From Symbiodinium sp. CCMP2592 (lineage: Eukaryota > Sar > Dinophyceae > Suessiales > Symbiodiniaceae), in assembly GCA_905221615.1 (NCBI GenBank), contig CAJNDT010004668.1, positions 509,001 to 573,000 on the forward strand: a stretch of DNA of 64,000 nt, written 5' to 3'. Below, one piece after another: positions 46,926 to 58,900 of this stretch (position 1 is its first letter; the number at the start of each line of letters is the position of its first letter). The translations under genes and the position numbers were made by a program. The notes beneath the pieces were generated by a model that was not told the DNA's origin, did not search any database, and saw nothing but the letters and a program-made list of their open reading frames with translations.

Positions 46926-49900
46926 GTGCTCACCCCCCCCCCCCGTTGACAGACCGCGGGTCTAAAAAACACCGTGCACGACGATATTCTATGAAGCAAA
47001 ACCTTTACATGAGGTACATAGTATAGCACCAGACGTGCGGCACATGAGTTACGTAACAGTCTTGTGGTAGTATCGGTATTAGGGTGAGTATTTTTATTAA
47101 TATTAGTACTATTGTTTGCTGTAAGTATACGTATCAATATTGCCAACTATAAATTAGTGTTAGTGCTCATGTTCGTGTTAGAGTTAGCGCTAGTGCCAGT
47201 GTCAATGTCAGTAATACAGCACCACTGCTACGAGTAGTATCAGTATCAGTCTTAATGCTGGGTTTAACAGCAGCTTATATTCGCAGAAGTGCTAGTATTA
47301 GTATCAATATTAGAACTAGTTAGTTTGGATATGTTAGTATATTGATAGTCTCGTATATTAGCAGATGAGTATATCAGTACATCAATGTATTCGAACAGTA
47401 AAATATTTGCATACTTGTATACTAGTATATTTTACATGTTAGTACAACTGGTGCATGAATACACTACTATACTGCTGTACTAGCTTACTAGTATATTGAC
47501 ATACCAGTATATTCGAACGTTAGCATATTAGTGTACGAGTATGTGTACTATATGACTGTTTTATCTAATCATTTATAAGTATATCAGTATGTTGGCATAT
47601 TGGTATACGAACTTGTCATGTCGGTATTCTTGCATAGTGCAGTAGCCGTATATGAGTACAGTCACATATTCGTGTAGTATACTCATACAACAACGAGAGG
47701 TATATTGATACATTGGTATATGGGCATATGCCTATGCCAAAGCATTAATACATGAATGCACTGACGTATATATCTGTATCTTAAGATAGTGGTATGTATT
47801 TTATGTACATTAGTATATGCAGGTGTCTATTAGTAATGATATTAGTCATCATATCAATATGAATATACTATTGGTGTTCGTAGCAGTATTAATGTCAATA
47901 TTATTAGAAATAGGACTATTTATACTCGTAATAGCCATAATATGAGTGCTCATGCTGGTAATACTAGTGGCATTCTTGAATATTCAGCAGATTATCAAAG
48001 TCCGTACTAGTGTTGGTGATAGCATCACTGTTAACGCACAAGAGTTTACGTACTCGTATTCGTAGGAGTATCAATAGCTATGTAAATATTGATGTTAGTA
48101 TAAATTTTGTGTGAAGTATTAGCAGTAGTGTTAGCTGTATTTTATGTACATTAGTATAAGCAGGTGTCCATTAGTAATGATATTAGTTTTCATATCAATA
48201 TTGTTGGTTATGAGCACCGGCTCTTGATGTCAATGCCCTTGCATTCTGATCTGGACTCATGGTGTCTGTCACAGGACTATAATGATCAGGCATATTCGTT
48301 AGGGCACGCTGTCCCCTCCGAGGCGTATGATACGGGTTAGTGGCATCTTCATCCACATCGCTCTGCATTATCACACTCACGGCGCTCAAAGGATCACGGA
48401 AGTGAAAGTACCGGCCCGGGCAACACGTGTTGACCTTCCTACCCGCAAATCCTCAAGACTACGAACCCGAGATTAAACCAGAAGGCCCCAGCAGTCTGGC
48501 ACGACTCGAAAGAGTCAAGGCAACACAAGCTTTCAAGGTATTCGCTGTTAAGGGTTTGGGGATGTTATGTTCTGCACGGAGAGGCCGTTGGCCTCTGTGT
48601 CGTCGTCACAACCCCAAACACTCCCAGTCGCAAGAAACCAAAGTTGCCAAACAGCTCTCGGATCCTTTTCGCGTTCTTGAGCCAAATACCATACGAAGTC
48701 TCGCCGTGTAAAAGCGAACTGAGTCATGCTTGCAAGTCAGAGACAAGCATATGACTTCTTGAATCGTGCACTGCGAACTGCACCGACTCTATCCTGCATT
48801 GCACTCATCAAACATGTGCATGCGCAGTTCCTAAAATGGTGTGCTCGCGCCCTCCGTAAGAGAGCATGTTCGCAAAACTAATTATAGCCATACACTAGAG
48901 ATGGGAGCTTCGACCACATCGTGAGCATGGCATACTATCATGGAGCATCTGGCCTATCAACAACACTCCTCCTTCTCGGCATGTGCGATTCCGCACGTGC
49001 TGAGACTCAGACTCAGCCAGATCTCCAAACTGAAAGCTAAAATGGCGCATAGAGGATGAAGCAACAGCGTACTCCCCTGGCCCGTAGGGGTTTGGCGAAC
49101 CAGCCTATGGTCTCTTTTCTTTCTTTTTTCGAGCCTTGACTCTGTTCTTATCCCCAGTGGGAACAACTGCGCCTTCCTACCCTAATCACAGACCCTGGAC
49201 TATTCCTTCGGAGTCTATGTTACAAAAGCACTTACCACTCCTGAGAGTGGCCCTCACGCGAAAAGATTATGAGTAGAACGATTGTCACGACCTACCCATC
49301 ATATTAATCACATGATCCGCAGCTGCACACGCGCCACTGCCAGTTTCGCCTTGCCCAAGACTTTGGTAAGTCCATCGGCCTCAAGCTCATTTGTCCCGCG
49401 ATGCAAAACCTCAATGTCATGTAGCCACACAAGATCTCGGATGTAAGCACAACGGATTGCGAAATGCCGTGTTCTCATTGTCTGCTCGTGAAAGCGCTCC
49501 TTAGTCACCAGCTGGATGGCACCTGAATTGTCACCGAACGCCAAAATGCGCGGCGCACGGCCCGACAGTTCAGCTATGACTGCGTGCAGCTTCAGCCCAT
49601 CTTGGAAAGCAATAGCCATAGCCTCGAGCTCACTTTCGGTAGCCGACCAGGCTACTAAAGCCTGTCTTTGAGACCTCCAGTACAGCAGATGACTTCCTAG
49701 GAATAAAGCCACGCCGCTCCTCGAACGAGCTCCCCCTGGAGCGAGAGAGGCATCTGACACTATCCGGAACACTGATGGATCATTCATCGCGTCGTCTGGA
49801 CCCTTGGGACCTCCGTAATTGTACTGAATCACTTTGTCCCAAGTGCTTCGAAGATAACGCCAGATTCCCTTGCACAATCGCAGACTCTCGGACGGCCTGG

Positions 49901-52900
49901 AAGTGATCAAAGTACTGGCTACACCTAAGCAAGCAGCAATGTCCGGCCTGGATCGGAGTGCAATCCACATCAAGGTTCCAGCTTCCTTTTGGGCCAGTTT
50001 CATGTTAGCTTCGAACGCATTGTCTCGGATCTCAGACGCCGCAAGGCCCTCCGATGGTACCGGTAGTGATTCTGACCCCTTGAGCGTGAGCCACCCTCGA
50101 GCCCGAAGTTCTTGTGCCACATACTTTGCCTGTCCAATCTGCAATCCATCACTCGCCACAGCAATCTCTGCACCGAGGAATCGCATGCACCGAACGAGCT
50201 TCAAGGTCAAGGTTTCACTCACAACGAGGTTTCCGCTAAGTCCTACCCCTGGTTTCTCAAGAATACCCTGACCCTTGATAGACCACAAACTCTGAATGAA
50301 AGCAGTGACTCTTCGGATCACTTCCACATCGCCCACGACCAGACCATCGTCGACATAGCAACAGCACGCTCCAACGACCACACCCTTCTCATCTACCAGC
50401 TTCCACAGGCCAGCGGCAAGGTTGATCGGAATGAAAGTCAGTGCTGAATGATTGTCGCCCTTGGAGCCCTGGATGGTTGCATGATTGATCTTCGTGTCGC
50501 GCTCTTTCTCCCATTCGGTCGGGCCCCGACGGAGCCCGTAGATGTTCTTTCGCGCTATCCACACCGTTTCTGCACCAACGAGCCCTAGGTCTCGCATAAC
50601 TTTGGGTGGAGTAATAATCACAGGATCTCCGGAGGAAATGTCGGCGTTCAGAAAGGCGGCCTCGACATCCAAGCCCCCCAAAGTCCAATTCTCCGTTGAT
50701 GCAGCCAATGACACGAAAGTCCGCACAATCTCAGGTGGGATGTTTGAAGACGTCCAAGGTTCACCATTGTTGTCAGCTCCTGATTCAAAGTTGCCACAAG
50801 CGCATATTCGGCTTTTCTCGGCAAACCCATCCTCGTTGGCCAACGTCGGGTCCTCGCTCGGTTTGAGTGTTGCCACAACCTTAGAAGGGATTTCACGAGG
50901 TAAGCGGGTCCCCGTAGGCAGGCCCAATCTGCCATGTAGTTGATCCCGGGTCGCTTCCTCAAGGACATCTTTCATCTTCCCATACTCCTTCACAAGTGAG
51001 GCTTTCCACTGCTGCTGTCTGTCACCCTTATAGAAACCCTTCAAGTCCACCGTCTCCGCTTGAGCCGGCGCTGTGCTCGCTTCCAGTAGCTTCTCCTCGA
51101 CTTGATTCGCCAACTGCTCCTCCTCATAGGAAAGCAGATGATACTTCTGCCAGTTCACAGCCTTATCGCCATGTTCAGGGGCAGGTTGTTTCATTTGGGA
51201 TGATGACGTAGCAACTGCTGCCAGTGGATACCCGTCTAAGGGACTCTGACCGCTCTGGACCTCCTCAACCGTCAAGATGCCCAGGTCAATGCCCAGATCC
51301 CTGATAGTATCCGCATCTCGCACTTGGCCGTCGCTTGAGATCCAGAGGAGATCACCTGACAGAGACTCATATGTTCTCCATCGTCGTTCTGGCTCCTTGG
51401 TGATAGCAGGGAGTCGAGTAACCACGACAAGGCTCTTGCCGTTCCTTCTGACTTCGACATAAGCACCATTGGTAAACCGGTCAGCCCGACCCAAGAAAAT
51501 ACCTGCTTCAGAACGAACGTCAAGCGGGCCCGGATCGTTGATCTTGACAGCCACGTGGTCACCTGGATATGGTACCTGCCCTTGCCACGATTTTCCCAAT
51601 GTCAAGTCACGTTGTTGCCTCGCTGCTTCCTGAAACAAAATTGGCCAGTATTTTGAAGGCGCTTCGCCCTTGATGATGAACTCACGTACTCGCTGCTTGA
51701 GCAATCCAATGTTTCTCTCCGCAACACCATTAGCAGCTGGATCGTGTCCAACGGTGCTCGTCTGATGGATTCCCGCCTTTTTGATTTCCTCAACCACACG
51801 TCGAGCCAGGAATTCCTTGGCACGGTCTGAATGGATCCGAACAGGCGCTTTCCCACCAGCAATCGCCGAAAGCTCATTCAAGATACCACGTACTCCACTG
51901 AGAACATCTGACCAGAATCTGCGTTGCAGTGGCTGGACAAATTGGAGAGTGGCACCATCTTCAAGTCTGAACACACCTGCAAGGATGTACTTGGAATGAT
52001 CATGTGCACCTTTGTATGGTCCTGCAATATCCAGAGAGAGGACCCCCTTTGCAACATCGGACGGCTGCACTTTGCGGTGCGGCTTCTTGGTTCCTCTAGC
52101 ACGGTAATCGTCAAGTGTGTGACCCGGTTTCGCCTTGACAGGTTCTTTCGGAGCTTCCGGCGCAGCCGCAGGCAACGCAAACTCCCGGGAACTTGCCTCA
52201 CCAGGTTGATCATCGAATTGACTCGCATGGAAAATGTCCTCAGGATCTGCAAGCGAAGGCTCATACTCCGCTAGATCGTCATCCAAAGGCCACATGTCGG
52301 AGCTCGCGGGCGGACCATCGGGATCAGCTAGACCCTGAAACACATCTCCAAACAACCCGCCATCCTGGAATTCATCCGACACATTCTCCCTGAACTGACC
52401 CTCGCCTACCGTCGCGTCCGTCGTCTTGGCTTCAAGGTCCTCAGGAAACTGGTCATCGGCGGGGTTCAGGCTTAGGGGGAATGCGATGTGTTCGGCCGCA
52501 GCAGCAACTGCCTCGCAGGTTGGAAAGTGCAACTCCTTCAATCGCCTCTGTTCATCTGCCGGCAAGGTAAGCACGTTCCTAGTCGTGAAAAATGACAATG
52601 CTACGCGTGTGCCCTTCCAAGGCGTGGTTCCATGCCACTTTGTTGGACTGAACTGCACTGGACGCCTTAGCACCGGCATGACAACACCCCGAAGATTCAG
52701 ATCCGGCTTGATCTGGCGCATTTGATCGCCATCCTCCTGCTCAATCCACAAACTGCCGCCCTTGCACTGGCCCTTGTGGTTTAGCACGACAAGCACGTTT
52801 AGGGAATCAGGTTCATTATGGGTGTCCTTATGCGGGGTAAAGGTAACGTCTTGGGATATGGTAAAAGACGACCAGGATGCAGTGGGCATCTCTTGCTGCA

Positions 52901-55900
52901 TGAAGCGATTGATCAAGGCAACAAGGTTCGGGAATTGATTGGTTCGCGTTGTCACGCCGCAGTGCGGGCCATGACCGTAAGCACCAAACACCCATGACTT
53001 TATGCCCTCTGAACCCTCAAGACCTACAGCACAGGATCTCGACTTGCTCTGAGGTTTCAAACCCGCCTTCATGACAGCCTCCAAAACATGGTCATATGTG
53101 ATGCTCTCAAGCTTCAAGAAGGCTGCTGCGACTTGCTCTCCAATGCATGCCTTGGAATCTGGGGACACACACTCCTTAGCCTCAGCCTCACACTCATGCA
53201 AATCATCCGGTGTTACAAACATGTTCATAAGCTCGCTCTCGTTACTCGCGACGGCACAGCAGCTCCTCTTCTGGTTTCGGAAAGCGGCTGACAGCTGTTT
53301 GCGAAGGTGGGCAAAATCCGACCAGTAAATGTAAGGCAAGCCATTGTCGACGAACATGTGGATGGTTTCACATCCAGCTTCAGTCTCCCGCACTAACCTA
53401 GCACCCAAATCCAGATCCCAGACAAACCTATAGCCTAGCTGCACCAGCCTACCTACAGGGACAATCCAGGAGGTCTCATCACCAGGCATTGCAAGCTCAC
53501 CGTCCCTCGTACGCCATGCACATGTAGTGTTGCCATCGGCTAGCGTGAGGCGAACCTGACTAGACCTTGCGGGTGGTTGGGGACCGACGGGCCTGATAAG
53601 CTCATTTGCACCGGTGTCCGCAAGAACACATCGCTCCTCCTCACACCTACCAGTGCTGCTTGCCTGGGCTGCATGAGGATTCTGGTTGGAATGGTCGTGT
53701 GAAGAGGACGATGATGATGATGTTCGGAGTGCTGGTGGGAGGACCACAGTAGGCGCCTTTGCCGGTGGAGCGCCCCTCACTTGGAGGGTCGGGGGACTTA
53801 GTAACTGCTTATTTTGGGGACTTATAAGTACCATAACCCCAATTAGGGTCCCTTTTAGGGTACTTATAAGTCTACTTACTACCTACTTACTAAGTCCCCC
53901 GACCCTCCAAGCACGTAAGCGGACGCGGCATCGGGAGCTCTTGCTGGAGCCGCCTTGCTGGGTTCCGGGGGCCTACGATACGCAAGTTCAGGTACATGGG
54001 GATCGGGGATCTCGGGCCAGCGTCGCACCCTTGGTCGGTGCTGTATCTGGGCCAAAGCAAGCTGCCTTTCCCGACCTGAACTCTCCTCCTGAATCCAAAC
54101 CACAAAGCAGGGCCTTCCAACCCCATCTTCGCAAAGGACAACTGTGGTATCACACTTGATCATGCACACTCCCTCCGCGATGGGTATGGTGCCCGTTTCA
54201 TCTACATCTAGCTCATCATGAATGATCGTATCCCAGACTGCCCACACAATGGAGTTAGGATTCTCCTCCTCACGAAAATCTCGGTCTGCACACACCTGAA
54301 TCTGCGATGGGCGCGTCCAATGGATGTAATCCCGTAGGGACAAGTCAAGAACCCAGAGCGGGCCACCGGCCTCCGGAATTGATTCTACACCTTCAGACTC
54401 CTCCTCACTCGGTGCTGGCTCGGACGGCTCGGGCGACTCTTCACCCTCACTTGACAGATCTACTGGACCCGGTTCCTCAAGACCACTAATAACCTTCATA
54501 GCCCTAGATCGGGTGATGCATGCTGAGGCCTTTGCTACGGCTCCTACTAAGGGTTCTGATGGACTCGCCGTAGTGGTGGTTGCTCCCTGTGGTTTTGCCG
54601 TGGCTTGCTTAGCCTCTCCATCATGCGAATATTTGCACTTGTCCCCGAACCTACACTTCCCATTCTTTTTCCAAGCAAGACAAGGTTGTTGCGACGGAGC
54701 TACAGCTGGGGCAGCCTTGGGTTTAGGAGTTGGGCTTGCTTTGGGTGGTGGAGCGCCCCCAGGGGCTGGTGGATTACCATGCGTGAATCGGCATCTGTCG
54801 CCAAATCTACACTTTCCCGTAGTTTTCCACGCTATGCACTCCTGCTTCACATCTTTTGAACCTGAATCCTTACCCGTACCCTTGCTACCCTTGCCTTTGC
54901 CTTTTCCGTCCTTGCCTTTGCCCTTCTTTGCCGTTGGATCGAGATCATCCTCCTGGCCGCGACCGCGACTCGTTTTTACCTGCTCATCGGCATGGAGTAG
55001 CTGAAACTGCTGGTCCAAAAGGCTGATCATCATGTCTACTCCCTCGGGGGTTGGCCGGATGATTTCCGGCCTAGTTCGCAGCAGACTAAGCATGGTACGC
55101 AATCGGTCATGACGCTTCTCCAGAGTCTGGGCAAGTGTTCCCAACGCTCCAAGCTCCTCAAATGGGGCAACCTGGGGGAGCGCCAATGCTATGGCCCTAG
55201 ATCTTGCTAGCCGCCACCGTCGGAGCACACTCAGACCCTCCTTTGCAGTGCCAACAGGTCTCAGATTCCGAACGAAAGCTTGTAACGACTGCATTTCTGC
55301 AGCGCCACCTGGTTGCAATGTTTCTAATACCCCTTCAAGGAGTGCAATTGCACGCATCGGTTCTGATTCATCTCCCTTTTCAAGGACATTCTGCTTCAAC
55401 TCAGCGGGCACACAACGGATCAGCAGTAGCACAAGCCGGTTTTCACTCTCCGAGTCCTCCTGTGGGACCCTTGGTGGTGGATCCAACTGGTGCAAACCTG
55501 CCAACCTTTGCTTGTGCCGATCATCTGCTAGCCTAAACTGCTGCTTCACATAAACCCCGAATGATTCGGCAATTGTTCCCGCAATAGTCTCAACCTGCTT
55601 GAACCAGGTCCGAAGCTTCATACCTTGTTCCCAAGGCTCTCCAGCTCCTAACCTCAACGCAGGCACATCCTGAAGTAGCTTCCACCGACCGTGATGGATG
55701 CTCGTGTTACCTCCGTGATCACTTGGTCCTGAAGGTCTGAATTCTGGCATGAACGCAGTTTGCGCCGCCTGTGGCACATTCTGCGTGGGATCTGTGTGGT
55801 CCCCGGTGGGTGCAGGCGTCGAAGCCGGCTGATCCCCGAAGCCAGGCGGCGGACCCTGTGGCATCGCATCTACATCATTATGCTGACCCCACCACCCTGC

Positions 55901-58900
55901 TTCATAATCTTCCATCCCCGGATCACCAACAACAGGTTCCTCATCTGTGTAGACGGCAAAATGCTCGCAAATCTGATGTAAACCCCTGATCTCCTCTCGG
56001 ATGGTCGCGCTGTGACTCTCCAAATGAGACACTGATGATTCTACTTCTGCCACTGAAGCATGCAGATCTGCAACATCCCGGGAAATCACATCGAGGCGCT
56101 GCCCATGATCTGTCATAGTAGCACACAGTTCATCGACCTGAGTGCGGACCTCAGTTGAGTCGCAGCCCTTCTGATCAGCTGAAGCGCGATGCTCCTGCCG
56201 AAAAGTTTGCCACTCCCGCTCCCGCTCTTGATTTGCCTGTTCAAGCACACCAACACGAGATCGCAGGGTCTCATTCTCAGAACTGGCCTTCCGGAGTCCA
56301 GCCTCAAGGTTGTTTTGAATTGTTACAATGTGTGCCTCAACCTGGGCTTGCCATTGTTGCGGGCCCATCATGGCCGTTTCCGCCTTTATCTGGACCGCAC
56401 TCAACTGCTCGCGAACGATTGCAAACTGTTGTCGCATGTCCGTGCTGAGCTGCTCACCGGTGGATTCTATCTCTTGCTTTAAAGACAGGTTTTCATTCAT
56501 GAGAAAGGCCAAAGTACGACTATGGGCCTCCATTCCTTGTTGGAGCCTGTCCAGGTTATCCACTATGGCATTGTATCCAGAGTGGAGCGTTACGCATGCA
56601 TCTCCCAAAACGTTGGATCTATACTGCATACGATCATTCAGTTCAATGACAGCTGCTCTCAGGTCATGGAGCATAGAAGCATCCAGCGAAGCTGCCTGTG
56701 CAAACTGCTGAAGGATTGACGTCGGGATCTCCAGCCGGGTTGCTTGCATGAACTGAATGCCTCCGAACTGTGCTGACGGCCCTGCTGCCGTGGGGAACGG
56801 AGGCACGCTTGGTTGTGCGGAGCCGCTTGGGCTCATAACCTGTTGGTTATGAGCACCGGCTATTGATGTCAATGCCCTTGCATTCTGATCTGGACTCATG
56901 GTGTCTGTCACAGGACTATAATGATCAGGCATATTCGTTAGGGCACGCTGTCCCCTCCGAGGCGTATGATACGGGTTAGTGGCATCTTCATCCACATCGC
57001 TCTGCATTATCACACTCACGGCGCTCAAAGGATCACGGAAGTGAAAGTACCGGCCCGGGCAACACGTGTTGACCTTCCTACCCGCAAATCCTCAAGACTA
57101 CGAACCCGAGATTAAACCAGAAGGCCCCAGCAGTCTCGCACGACTCGAAAGAGTCAAGGCAACACAAGCTTTCAAGGTATTCGCTGTTAAGGGTTTGGGG
57201 ATGTTATGTTCTGCACGGAGAGGCCGTTGGCCTCTGTGTCGGCGTCACAACCCCAAACACTCCCAGTCGCAAGAAACCAAAGTTGCCAAACAGCTCTCGG
57301 ATCCTTTTCGCGTTCTTGAGCCAAATACCATACGAAGTCTCGCCGTGTAAAAGCGAACTGAGTCATGCTTGCAAGTCAGAGACAAGCATATGACTTCTTG
57401 AATCGTGCACTGCGAACTGCACCGACTCTATCCTGCATTGCACTCATCAAACATGTGCATGCGCAGTTCCTAAAATGGTGTGCTCGCGCCCTCCGTAAGA
57501 GAGCATGTTCGCAAAACTAATTATAGCCATACACTAGAGATGGGAGCTTCGACCACATCGTGAGCATGGCATACTATCATGGAGCATCTGGCCTATCAAC
57601 AACAAATATGAATATACTATTGGTATTCGTAGCAGTATTAATGTCAATATTATTAGAAATAGGACTATTTATACTCGTAATAGCCATAATATGGGTGTTC
57701 ATGCTGGTAATACTAGTGGCATTCTTGAATATTCAGCAGATTATCAAAGTCCGTATTAGTGTTGGTGATAGCACTACTGTTAACGCACAAGAGTTTACGT
57801 ATTCGTATTCGTAGGAGTATCAATAGCTATGTAAATATTGATGTTAGTATAAATTTTGTGTTAAGTATTAGCAGTAGTGTTAGCGTTAGTACTATAATAT
57901 TATTGATGATATACATTCGAAAGAATGTTTGTAGTATTATTACTCTTGATCACGTGAAATTCTAACAGTTGAATACATGAGTGAGTTAAAGGATTTGTAT
58001 TTTAATATGGTGGTATGCATGTTTATGTACATTAGTACATACAGGTGTGTGTTAGTATTGGTATTAATATACATTATTATCAATATGAATATGGTTATTG
58101 ATATGCGTAGGAGTAATAAGAGCAATACTAATCAATCTTAGTATTTGTGTTATGCATATTCGTACTAAGCTTTATAGAAGTGTAATATTAGTAGTAATGC
58201 TGGTATTAGCTTGAGCATTCAACAAATGATCACTGTCAGTATTTCCAATGGCAATACTATATGTAGGAGTATCAATACATATATGTATATACAGATAGAC
58301 AGGTAGATTGAGAGATATTCGTTTAAATATGGGCATGAGTATTGACAGCCCTTGCCTTTGCAAGTAAGTCGTGCATGGTCTGTCATCGGATGGGTCACAA
58401 TCAGCCCTCCTGAGAATCAATTCCAAGGTCCAGAGATTCCAAAATTTCCAAAAGTTCCAAAACTTCCAAAATTTCCGAAATTTCCAAAATTTCCAAAATT
58501 TCCAAAATTTCCAAAATTTCCAAAATTTCCAAAATTTCCAAAATTTCCAAAATTTCCGAAATTTCCAAAATTTCCAAAATTTCCAAAAAGTCCGCCCTTA
58601 TGTTTTGGAAAAATCCTGTCCACTAGGTCGGGCCGTTTTGGAAATTTTGGAAATTTTGGAAATTTTGGAAATTTTGGAAATTTCGAAATTTTGGAAATTT
58701 TGGAAATTTTGGAAATTTTGGAAATCCGGAAAGTTAAGGGAGAGAATTTTGGAAATTTTGGAAATTTTGGAATTGAGTTTTTGAAAGCTGAGTACCCCCT
58801 CCCCCGATCACAGACCATGCACTACGACTGAGTTGAAAGGGCATGGTCTGTCAACGAGTCTTTTGGTGGTTCCACAGATACGTTCGGAGGGCTCAAACTC

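Follow-up and report, generated by a model that had tools for sequence, protein, structure and literature searches.

The genome of Symbiodinium sp. CCMP2592 contains a recently inserted Copia retrotransposon in whose Pol polyprotein a 2-oxoglutarate (2OG)-Fe(II) oxygenase domain separates the protease from the integrase. The element occupies positions 48202..57604 (minus strand, 9403 bp) of the window, the 64,000-nucleotide stretch of contig CAJNDT010004668.1 analyzed here (assembly GCA_905221615.1, positions 509,001 to 573,000). The domain is probably an old, selected and, by prediction, active oxygenase of dinoflagellate Copia elements. With moderate confidence we favour a joint reading in which this recent element bears in Pol a conserved, long-standing and selected TET/JBP-like oxygenase that is apparently competent and would act by oxidizing bases.

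The oxygenase domain covers Pol residues 246-440 (52515..53099, minus strand, as are all Pol features below) and is about 200 amino acids long. The motif PHKDTHN (Pol 334-340, 52815..52835) holds the putative iron ligands His335 and Asp337 together with the invariant Asn340, and GGSLW follows at Pol 359-363 (52746..52760). The putative third iron ligand, His401, and the putative 2OG-binding Arg410 are encoded at 52593..52637, the former inside WHGTTPW (Pol 400-406, 52637-52617) and the latter inside GTRVALS (Pol 408-414). A single frame runs from the protease motif DTGAN (73-77) through the domain to the integrase motifs (601-708). All of these residues had been named in the initial annotation, in one frame with protease and integrase, and they lie where it placed them; it left the strand unstated. 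Eleven long homologues among public proteins (64-100% identical; P0003, P0004, P0005 and P0012 are recorded from Symbiodinium sp. CCMP2592) all keep HxD, H and R. The mean identity of the eight divergent homologues to the window Pol is 0.78, 0.78 and 0.82 across residues 251-400, comparable figures being 0.80 and 0.77 in the protease (101-200) and higher ones, 0.90-0.96, in the integrase (601-800); it drops to 0.53 at residues 201-250 and to 0.47-0.54 at 451-550.

Profile searches with the isolated region matched the family 2OG-FeII_Oxy_3 (PF13640) at E=1.8e-4 and 22.8 bits for Pol 232-446 and at E=2.4e-5 and 25.6 bits for a 102-residue core, both under the curated cut-off of 27. A structure model of Pol 232-446 (52497-53141) built from a set of 37 sequences reached a predicted local distance difference test (pLDDT) score of 92.9 and folds as a 2OG-Fe(II) oxygenase with a double-stranded beta-helix. 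An earlier model from 9 sequences was poor (pLDDT 62.3); its 50 listed matches were all 2OG oxygenases, none at E<=0.001. With VIA-align the ranking was TET2, NgTET1, a bacterial 2OG oxygenase and CcTet, followed by AlkB enzymes, and eight of the first nine rows were TET2, NgTET1 or CcTet. Foldseek placed PiuC first, with EF-Tu prolyl hydroxylase, LH3 and PHD2 within the first 20. Sequence searches of the PDB gave no significant 2OG match and a PHROGs search gave none; short patterns drawn from close relatives only hit 58 stretches on viral contigs and 48 on genome contigs, none of which tblastn confirmed. Domain-sized protein searches returned five proteins at E<=1 in one case and four at E<=0.01 in another; none is named, so no standalone relative was identified. 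The profile or structure check set beforehand thus returned a match to 2OG families and, in the model, the double-stranded beta-helix fold. Judged by these sub-cut-off matches and the predicted fold, the region between the protease and the integrase is a true 2OG-Fe(II) oxygenase domain, as initially proposed.

A genome search yielded 5052 candidates, of which 150 were scored; all 150 passed, at identities from 100 to 30%, and by our own count five of these rows have a stop inside the matched stretch. Forty-five loci were selected: five came directly from the search, 20 were retrieved with their surroundings and 20 were short. The sequence comparison comprised 45 sequences, that is, the window and 44 loci; L018 was dropped because of a stop, L002 is the locus of the window element itself, and several of the sequences nearly duplicate one another. 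His335, Asp337, Asn340, Gly360, Phe395, His401, Gly408 and Arg410 are invariant in all 45, which therefore all hold the HxD...H iron triad and the 2OG-binding Arg that mark the superfamily; the His/Asp/His set, which was to be looked for in related copies, is thus kept throughout. The same eight residues are invariant in the 37-sequence set (the window piece and 36 of the 45 loci, omitting L001-L006, L008, L018 and L025), in which pairwise identity averages 30.5%.

In 18 of the 25 longer loci the domain occurs together with a protease and an integrase of the type seen in the window. By iterated profiles, a Copia reverse transcriptase (RT) lies downstream on the same strand at 21 of 21 loci (the window and L006-L025), and the full series of protease, domain, integrase, RT and RNase H is present at 14. 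The other seven belong to a second lineage, in which protease, integrase and RNase H escaped detection by these profiles; Pfam scans of six of its loci (all but L025) found RVT_2 or rve, some weak, in five and nothing in L024. Trees of the domain and of the RT both separate these two lineages, and the two sets of distances are correlated (Mantel r 0.83, 0 of 9999 permutations). The trees share 8 of 18 splits, and on each side five splits with support of at least 0.9 are absent from the other; because of these conflicts, the elements have probably exchanged segments. L009, L010 and L016 take different places in the two trees, which suggests such exchange between elements. Within the family, L020 (2938-8814) has a Copia frame of 3073 amino acids with a CCHC Gag finger and ~900 unassigned amino acids that separate the oxygenase from the integrase match. 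Since all scored matches pass, all 21 loci carry a Copia RT and the H/D/N/H/R set is invariant, the domain is not a one-off capture. The initial annotation had called it a captured accessory domain; on sequence comparison it is a lasting component of Copia elements in this genome, present in at least two deep lineages.

Selection was assessed against L007, whose domain is 76% identical to that of the window. The ratio of nonsynonymous to synonymous substitution rates (dN/dS) was 0.10 in the domain, 0.06 in the protease, 0.13 in the RT, and 0.18 and 0.39 in two linkers; dS is close to saturation (1.4 in the domain) and is saturated in integrase and RNase H. Nearly the same ratios were obtained against L008. 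Compared with L006, the window's domain shows three synonymous and five replacement changes (ratio 0.50), and such close copies are uninformative because the changes are too few. By sequence, predicted fold and conservation, the domain is a selected Copia component of this genome and, as judged from its divergence, a long-standing one. As diverse element families share it, it probably helps the elements to copy or persist.

The kind of oxygenase was examined by single-sequence Pfam scans (E<=1) of the 37 copies. Tet_JBP (PF12851) was matched by 15 (best 2.3e-5; at least three copies with E<0.001), 2OG-FeII_Oxy_3 by five and Asp_Arg_Hydrox by one. Among ten picked copies of the second lineage, Tet_JBP was matched by five (16.5 to 24.2 bits) and not by the other five. 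The motif HRDLHN is common to TET2 and several copies, the window having HKDTHN. Several results weigh against assignment to TET/JBP. Neither the Tet_JBP nor the 2OG-FeII_Oxy_3 matches reach the curated cut-off, the best Tet_JBP score being 24.2 bits against 34.9. The window core is nearer to PF13640 (2.4e-5 versus 0.043 for Tet_JBP), as are most of its close relatives (PF13640 matched in five of six; Tet_JBP in six of six, at best 0.019). Moreover, the Asn of HxDxxN is not decisive because PHD2, a protein hydroxylase, carries HVDNPN. The resemblance to TET/JBP put forward initially therefore stands on the profiles over many copies and on the VIA-align ranking, but not on family cut-offs, the window copy's own best profile or the HxDxxN motif. 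From its profiles and its model we describe the domain as TET/JBP-like without assigning it to the TET/JBP family; membership is favoured by VIA-align and by the profile matches of many copies, but is not proven.

The same adverse results make a protein hydroxylase of the P4H, PHD or PiuC kind the serious rival. Such an enzyme would hydroxylate Gag, the integrase or a host protein involved in chromatin or translation, and so aid assembly, nuclear entry or integration. In addition to the profile preference of the window core and the motif shared with PHD2, the Foldseek order headed by PiuC and the one Asp_Arg_Hydrox match speak for it. Set against this, Tet_JBP matches outnumber those to 2OG-FeII_Oxy_3 threefold across the 37 copies, and VIA-align puts TET enzymes in nearly all its leading rows with AlkB enzymes next; on balance we regard a protein hydroxylase as unlikely, though ahead of the remaining rivals. 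A less probable explanation is an AlkB-like enzyme that demethylates the genomic RNA of the element, as in orchid Gypsy elements. AlkB enzymes have a signature Arg six residues after the 2OG-binding Arg. At that position (R410+6) the 37 copies have Tyr (23), Phe (12) or His (2), and because the second Arg of this signature occurs in 0 of 37, the AlkB type is disfavoured; nor is any AlkB family among the 15 Pfam families matched by the 37 members.

The remaining two explanations deny catalysis. A catalytically idle structural domain, for instance one replacing the zinc finger at the integrase N terminus, would agree with the location directly before the integrase and with a Pol that has no CxxC pair anywhere along its length. 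A scaffold needs no invariant metal and 2OG residues, yet these are retained in all 45 sequences at about 30% identity, and we consider this explanation very improbable. That the motif arose by chance in a Pol linker might be argued from Pfam scans of full-length proteins: the whole 1508-residue Pol matched RVT_2 and a weak rve only and no 2OG family, scans of the whole relatives P0006-P0010 likewise matched no 2OG family and P0011 reached only E 0.034, and those of P0014, P0015 and P0017 matched no family. Chance is rejected because of the predicted fold and the residue invariance, with which the profile matches, the dN/dS ratios and the structural matches agree; we give it a negligible probability.

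For the favoured TET/JBP-like oxygenase, the position in Pol, the conservation and the predicted fold are shown; packaging with RT and integrase and action on element DNA are inferred. As a part of Pol, the oxygenase would enter the particle along with integrase and RT, where the protease may free it or it may stay beside the integrase. Its reaction would be the oxidation of a base methyl group in the nucleic acid of the element, most probably in the DNA copy. Our best guess is that the substrate is a base in the DNA of the element itself, with thymine converted to 5-hydroxymethyluracil (5hmU) or 5-methylcytosine (5mC) to hydroxymethylcytosine as candidate reactions. Thymine is suggested because dinoflagellate DNA is rich in 5hmU and because, in Breviolum, this base is enriched in most repeats, according to the parts of PMC11071213 used here; 5mC is suggested by the TET+ transposons of fungi, which are thought to act against methylation, as described in the sections of PMC12730594 considered. 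The new copy would come to resemble host DNA or would escape methylation-based silencing. A broader proposal is that the thymine hydroxylases which place 5hmU in dinoflagellate DNA have a major source in Copia elements. The elements would mark their own copies, and the genome-wide modification would partly be a by-product of this retroelement domain or have been domesticated from it. This proposal is speculative and in our view improbable.

The host element has the features of a Copia retrotransposon, as initially annotated: paired TG...CA long terminal repeats (LTRs), a 5-bp target-site duplication, the order protease, integrase, RT and RNase H, and an RVT_2 match (38.2 bits against a cut-off of 31.6 in the whole-Pol scan). 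The 5' LTR (56841..57604) and the 3' LTR (48202..48965), both on the minus strand and 764 bp long, start with TGTTG, end with CAACA and are identical at 761 of 764 positions. Because only three LTR differences are present and AATAT stands on both sides (48197..48201 and 57605..57609), the element is a complete, young Copia insertion. By eye, a tandem-like relative of the insertion target at about 47850-47890 runs across the site without the element and resembles an empty-site analogue. The Gag-side open reading frame (ORF; 53879..57028, minus strand) encodes 1049 amino acids from a TTG and includes two CCCH zinc fingers (about 54611-54838, minus strand). The Pol ORF (49308..53834; 1508 amino acids, no internal stop) comprises the protease segment (Pol 56-190, 53265..53669; DTGAN at 53604-53618), the oxygenase domain, the integrase core (Pol 591-800, 51435..52064; weak rve, D-D-E motifs LDIAGP, HSDRAKE and NGVAERN), the RT (Pol 931-1260, 50055..51044; RVT_2 match 1006-1186, YVDDG at 50343-50357) and the RNase H segment (Pol 1341-1500, 49335..49814).

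The Gag-Pol frame junction is interrupted by a 132-bp insertion (53780..53911, minus strand) with perfect 25-bp terminal inverted repeats and a TG duplication, which by its sequence is an element like a miniature inverted-repeat transposable element (MITE). It is confined to the window copy, being missing from five near-identical copies (L001, L003-L006), and its relatives occur in L017 (7639-7764 and 7988-8119), with a 48-bp piece in L023. A GC-AG intron was considered and dropped because the sister copies simply lack the insertion; removal from GC to AG would not give their uninterrupted reading. An N-terminal HHCC finger is usual in Copia integrases; because Pol has no CxxC pair, the finger seems to be absent in the window lineage, though the element inserted recently. 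Adjoining the 5' LTR, about 56823-56840 resembles by eye the anticodon arm of initiator tRNA-Met, as if priming were by a half tRNA, like in Drosophila copia. A minisatellite at 58430-58800 consists of 9-bp units (TTCCAAAAT-like) with open FPKFPK-type frames on both strands.

It is rare for retrotransposons to retain enzymes outside their core set. Since the catalytic residues of the domain have been preserved in Copia lineages that share about 30% identity, it must serve the element. It is small and folds alone in prediction, which makes direct expression and assay feasible, and it makes two questions testable: what makes dinoflagellate 5hmU, and whether retroelements edit their own DNA. Much of the thymine in the host group is hydroxymethylated, and no enzyme for this is named in the parts of PMC11071213 used here.

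Among known systems, the TET/JBP enzymes (TET2, NgTET1, CcTet, JBP1) have the same 2OG-Fe(II) fold and are the best VIA-align matches of the predicted model. TET2 shares its HRDLHN with several copies of the family but not with the window, and CcTet has the nine-residue H-to-R spacing of the window domain in an aligned stretch that is not significant; PHD2 has this spacing as well. Unlike those enzymes, the Copia domain scores under the Tet_JBP cut-off and is a short segment fused in a polyprotein. Fungal TET+ transposons (Kyakuja and others) are likewise mobile elements with a TET/JBP-type enzyme, but the carriers described in the consulted part of PMC12730594 are DNA transposons and some Helitrons, whereas the window element is Copia. 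An orchid Ty3/Gypsy element with an AlkB m6A (N6-methyladenosine) demethylase is also an LTR retrotransposon with a 2OG-Fe(II) domain; according to the portions of PMC9289625 used, that domain is of AlkB type, in a separate ORF and in one Phalaenopsis lineage, and the paper reports plant Copia elements as having no domain gain. In contrast, the window family is Copia, has the domain within Pol and spans diverse lineages. Symbiodinium retrotransposons with DNA methyltransferases (DNMTs) are also dinoflagellate retroelements with a DNA-modifying enzyme; in the sections of PMC5890265 used, the carriers are long interspersed nuclear elements (LINEs) and DIRS elements, and Copia is without DNMT. 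Among the papers listed by searches of open PMC full text, as judged from titles, abstract openings and passages of some of them, we saw no Copia element with such an oxygenase domain; subscription papers and preprints lie outside this coverage. As far as these sources go, oxygenase-type or DNA-modifying precedents exist in other element types, and the Copia case is apparently new among them.

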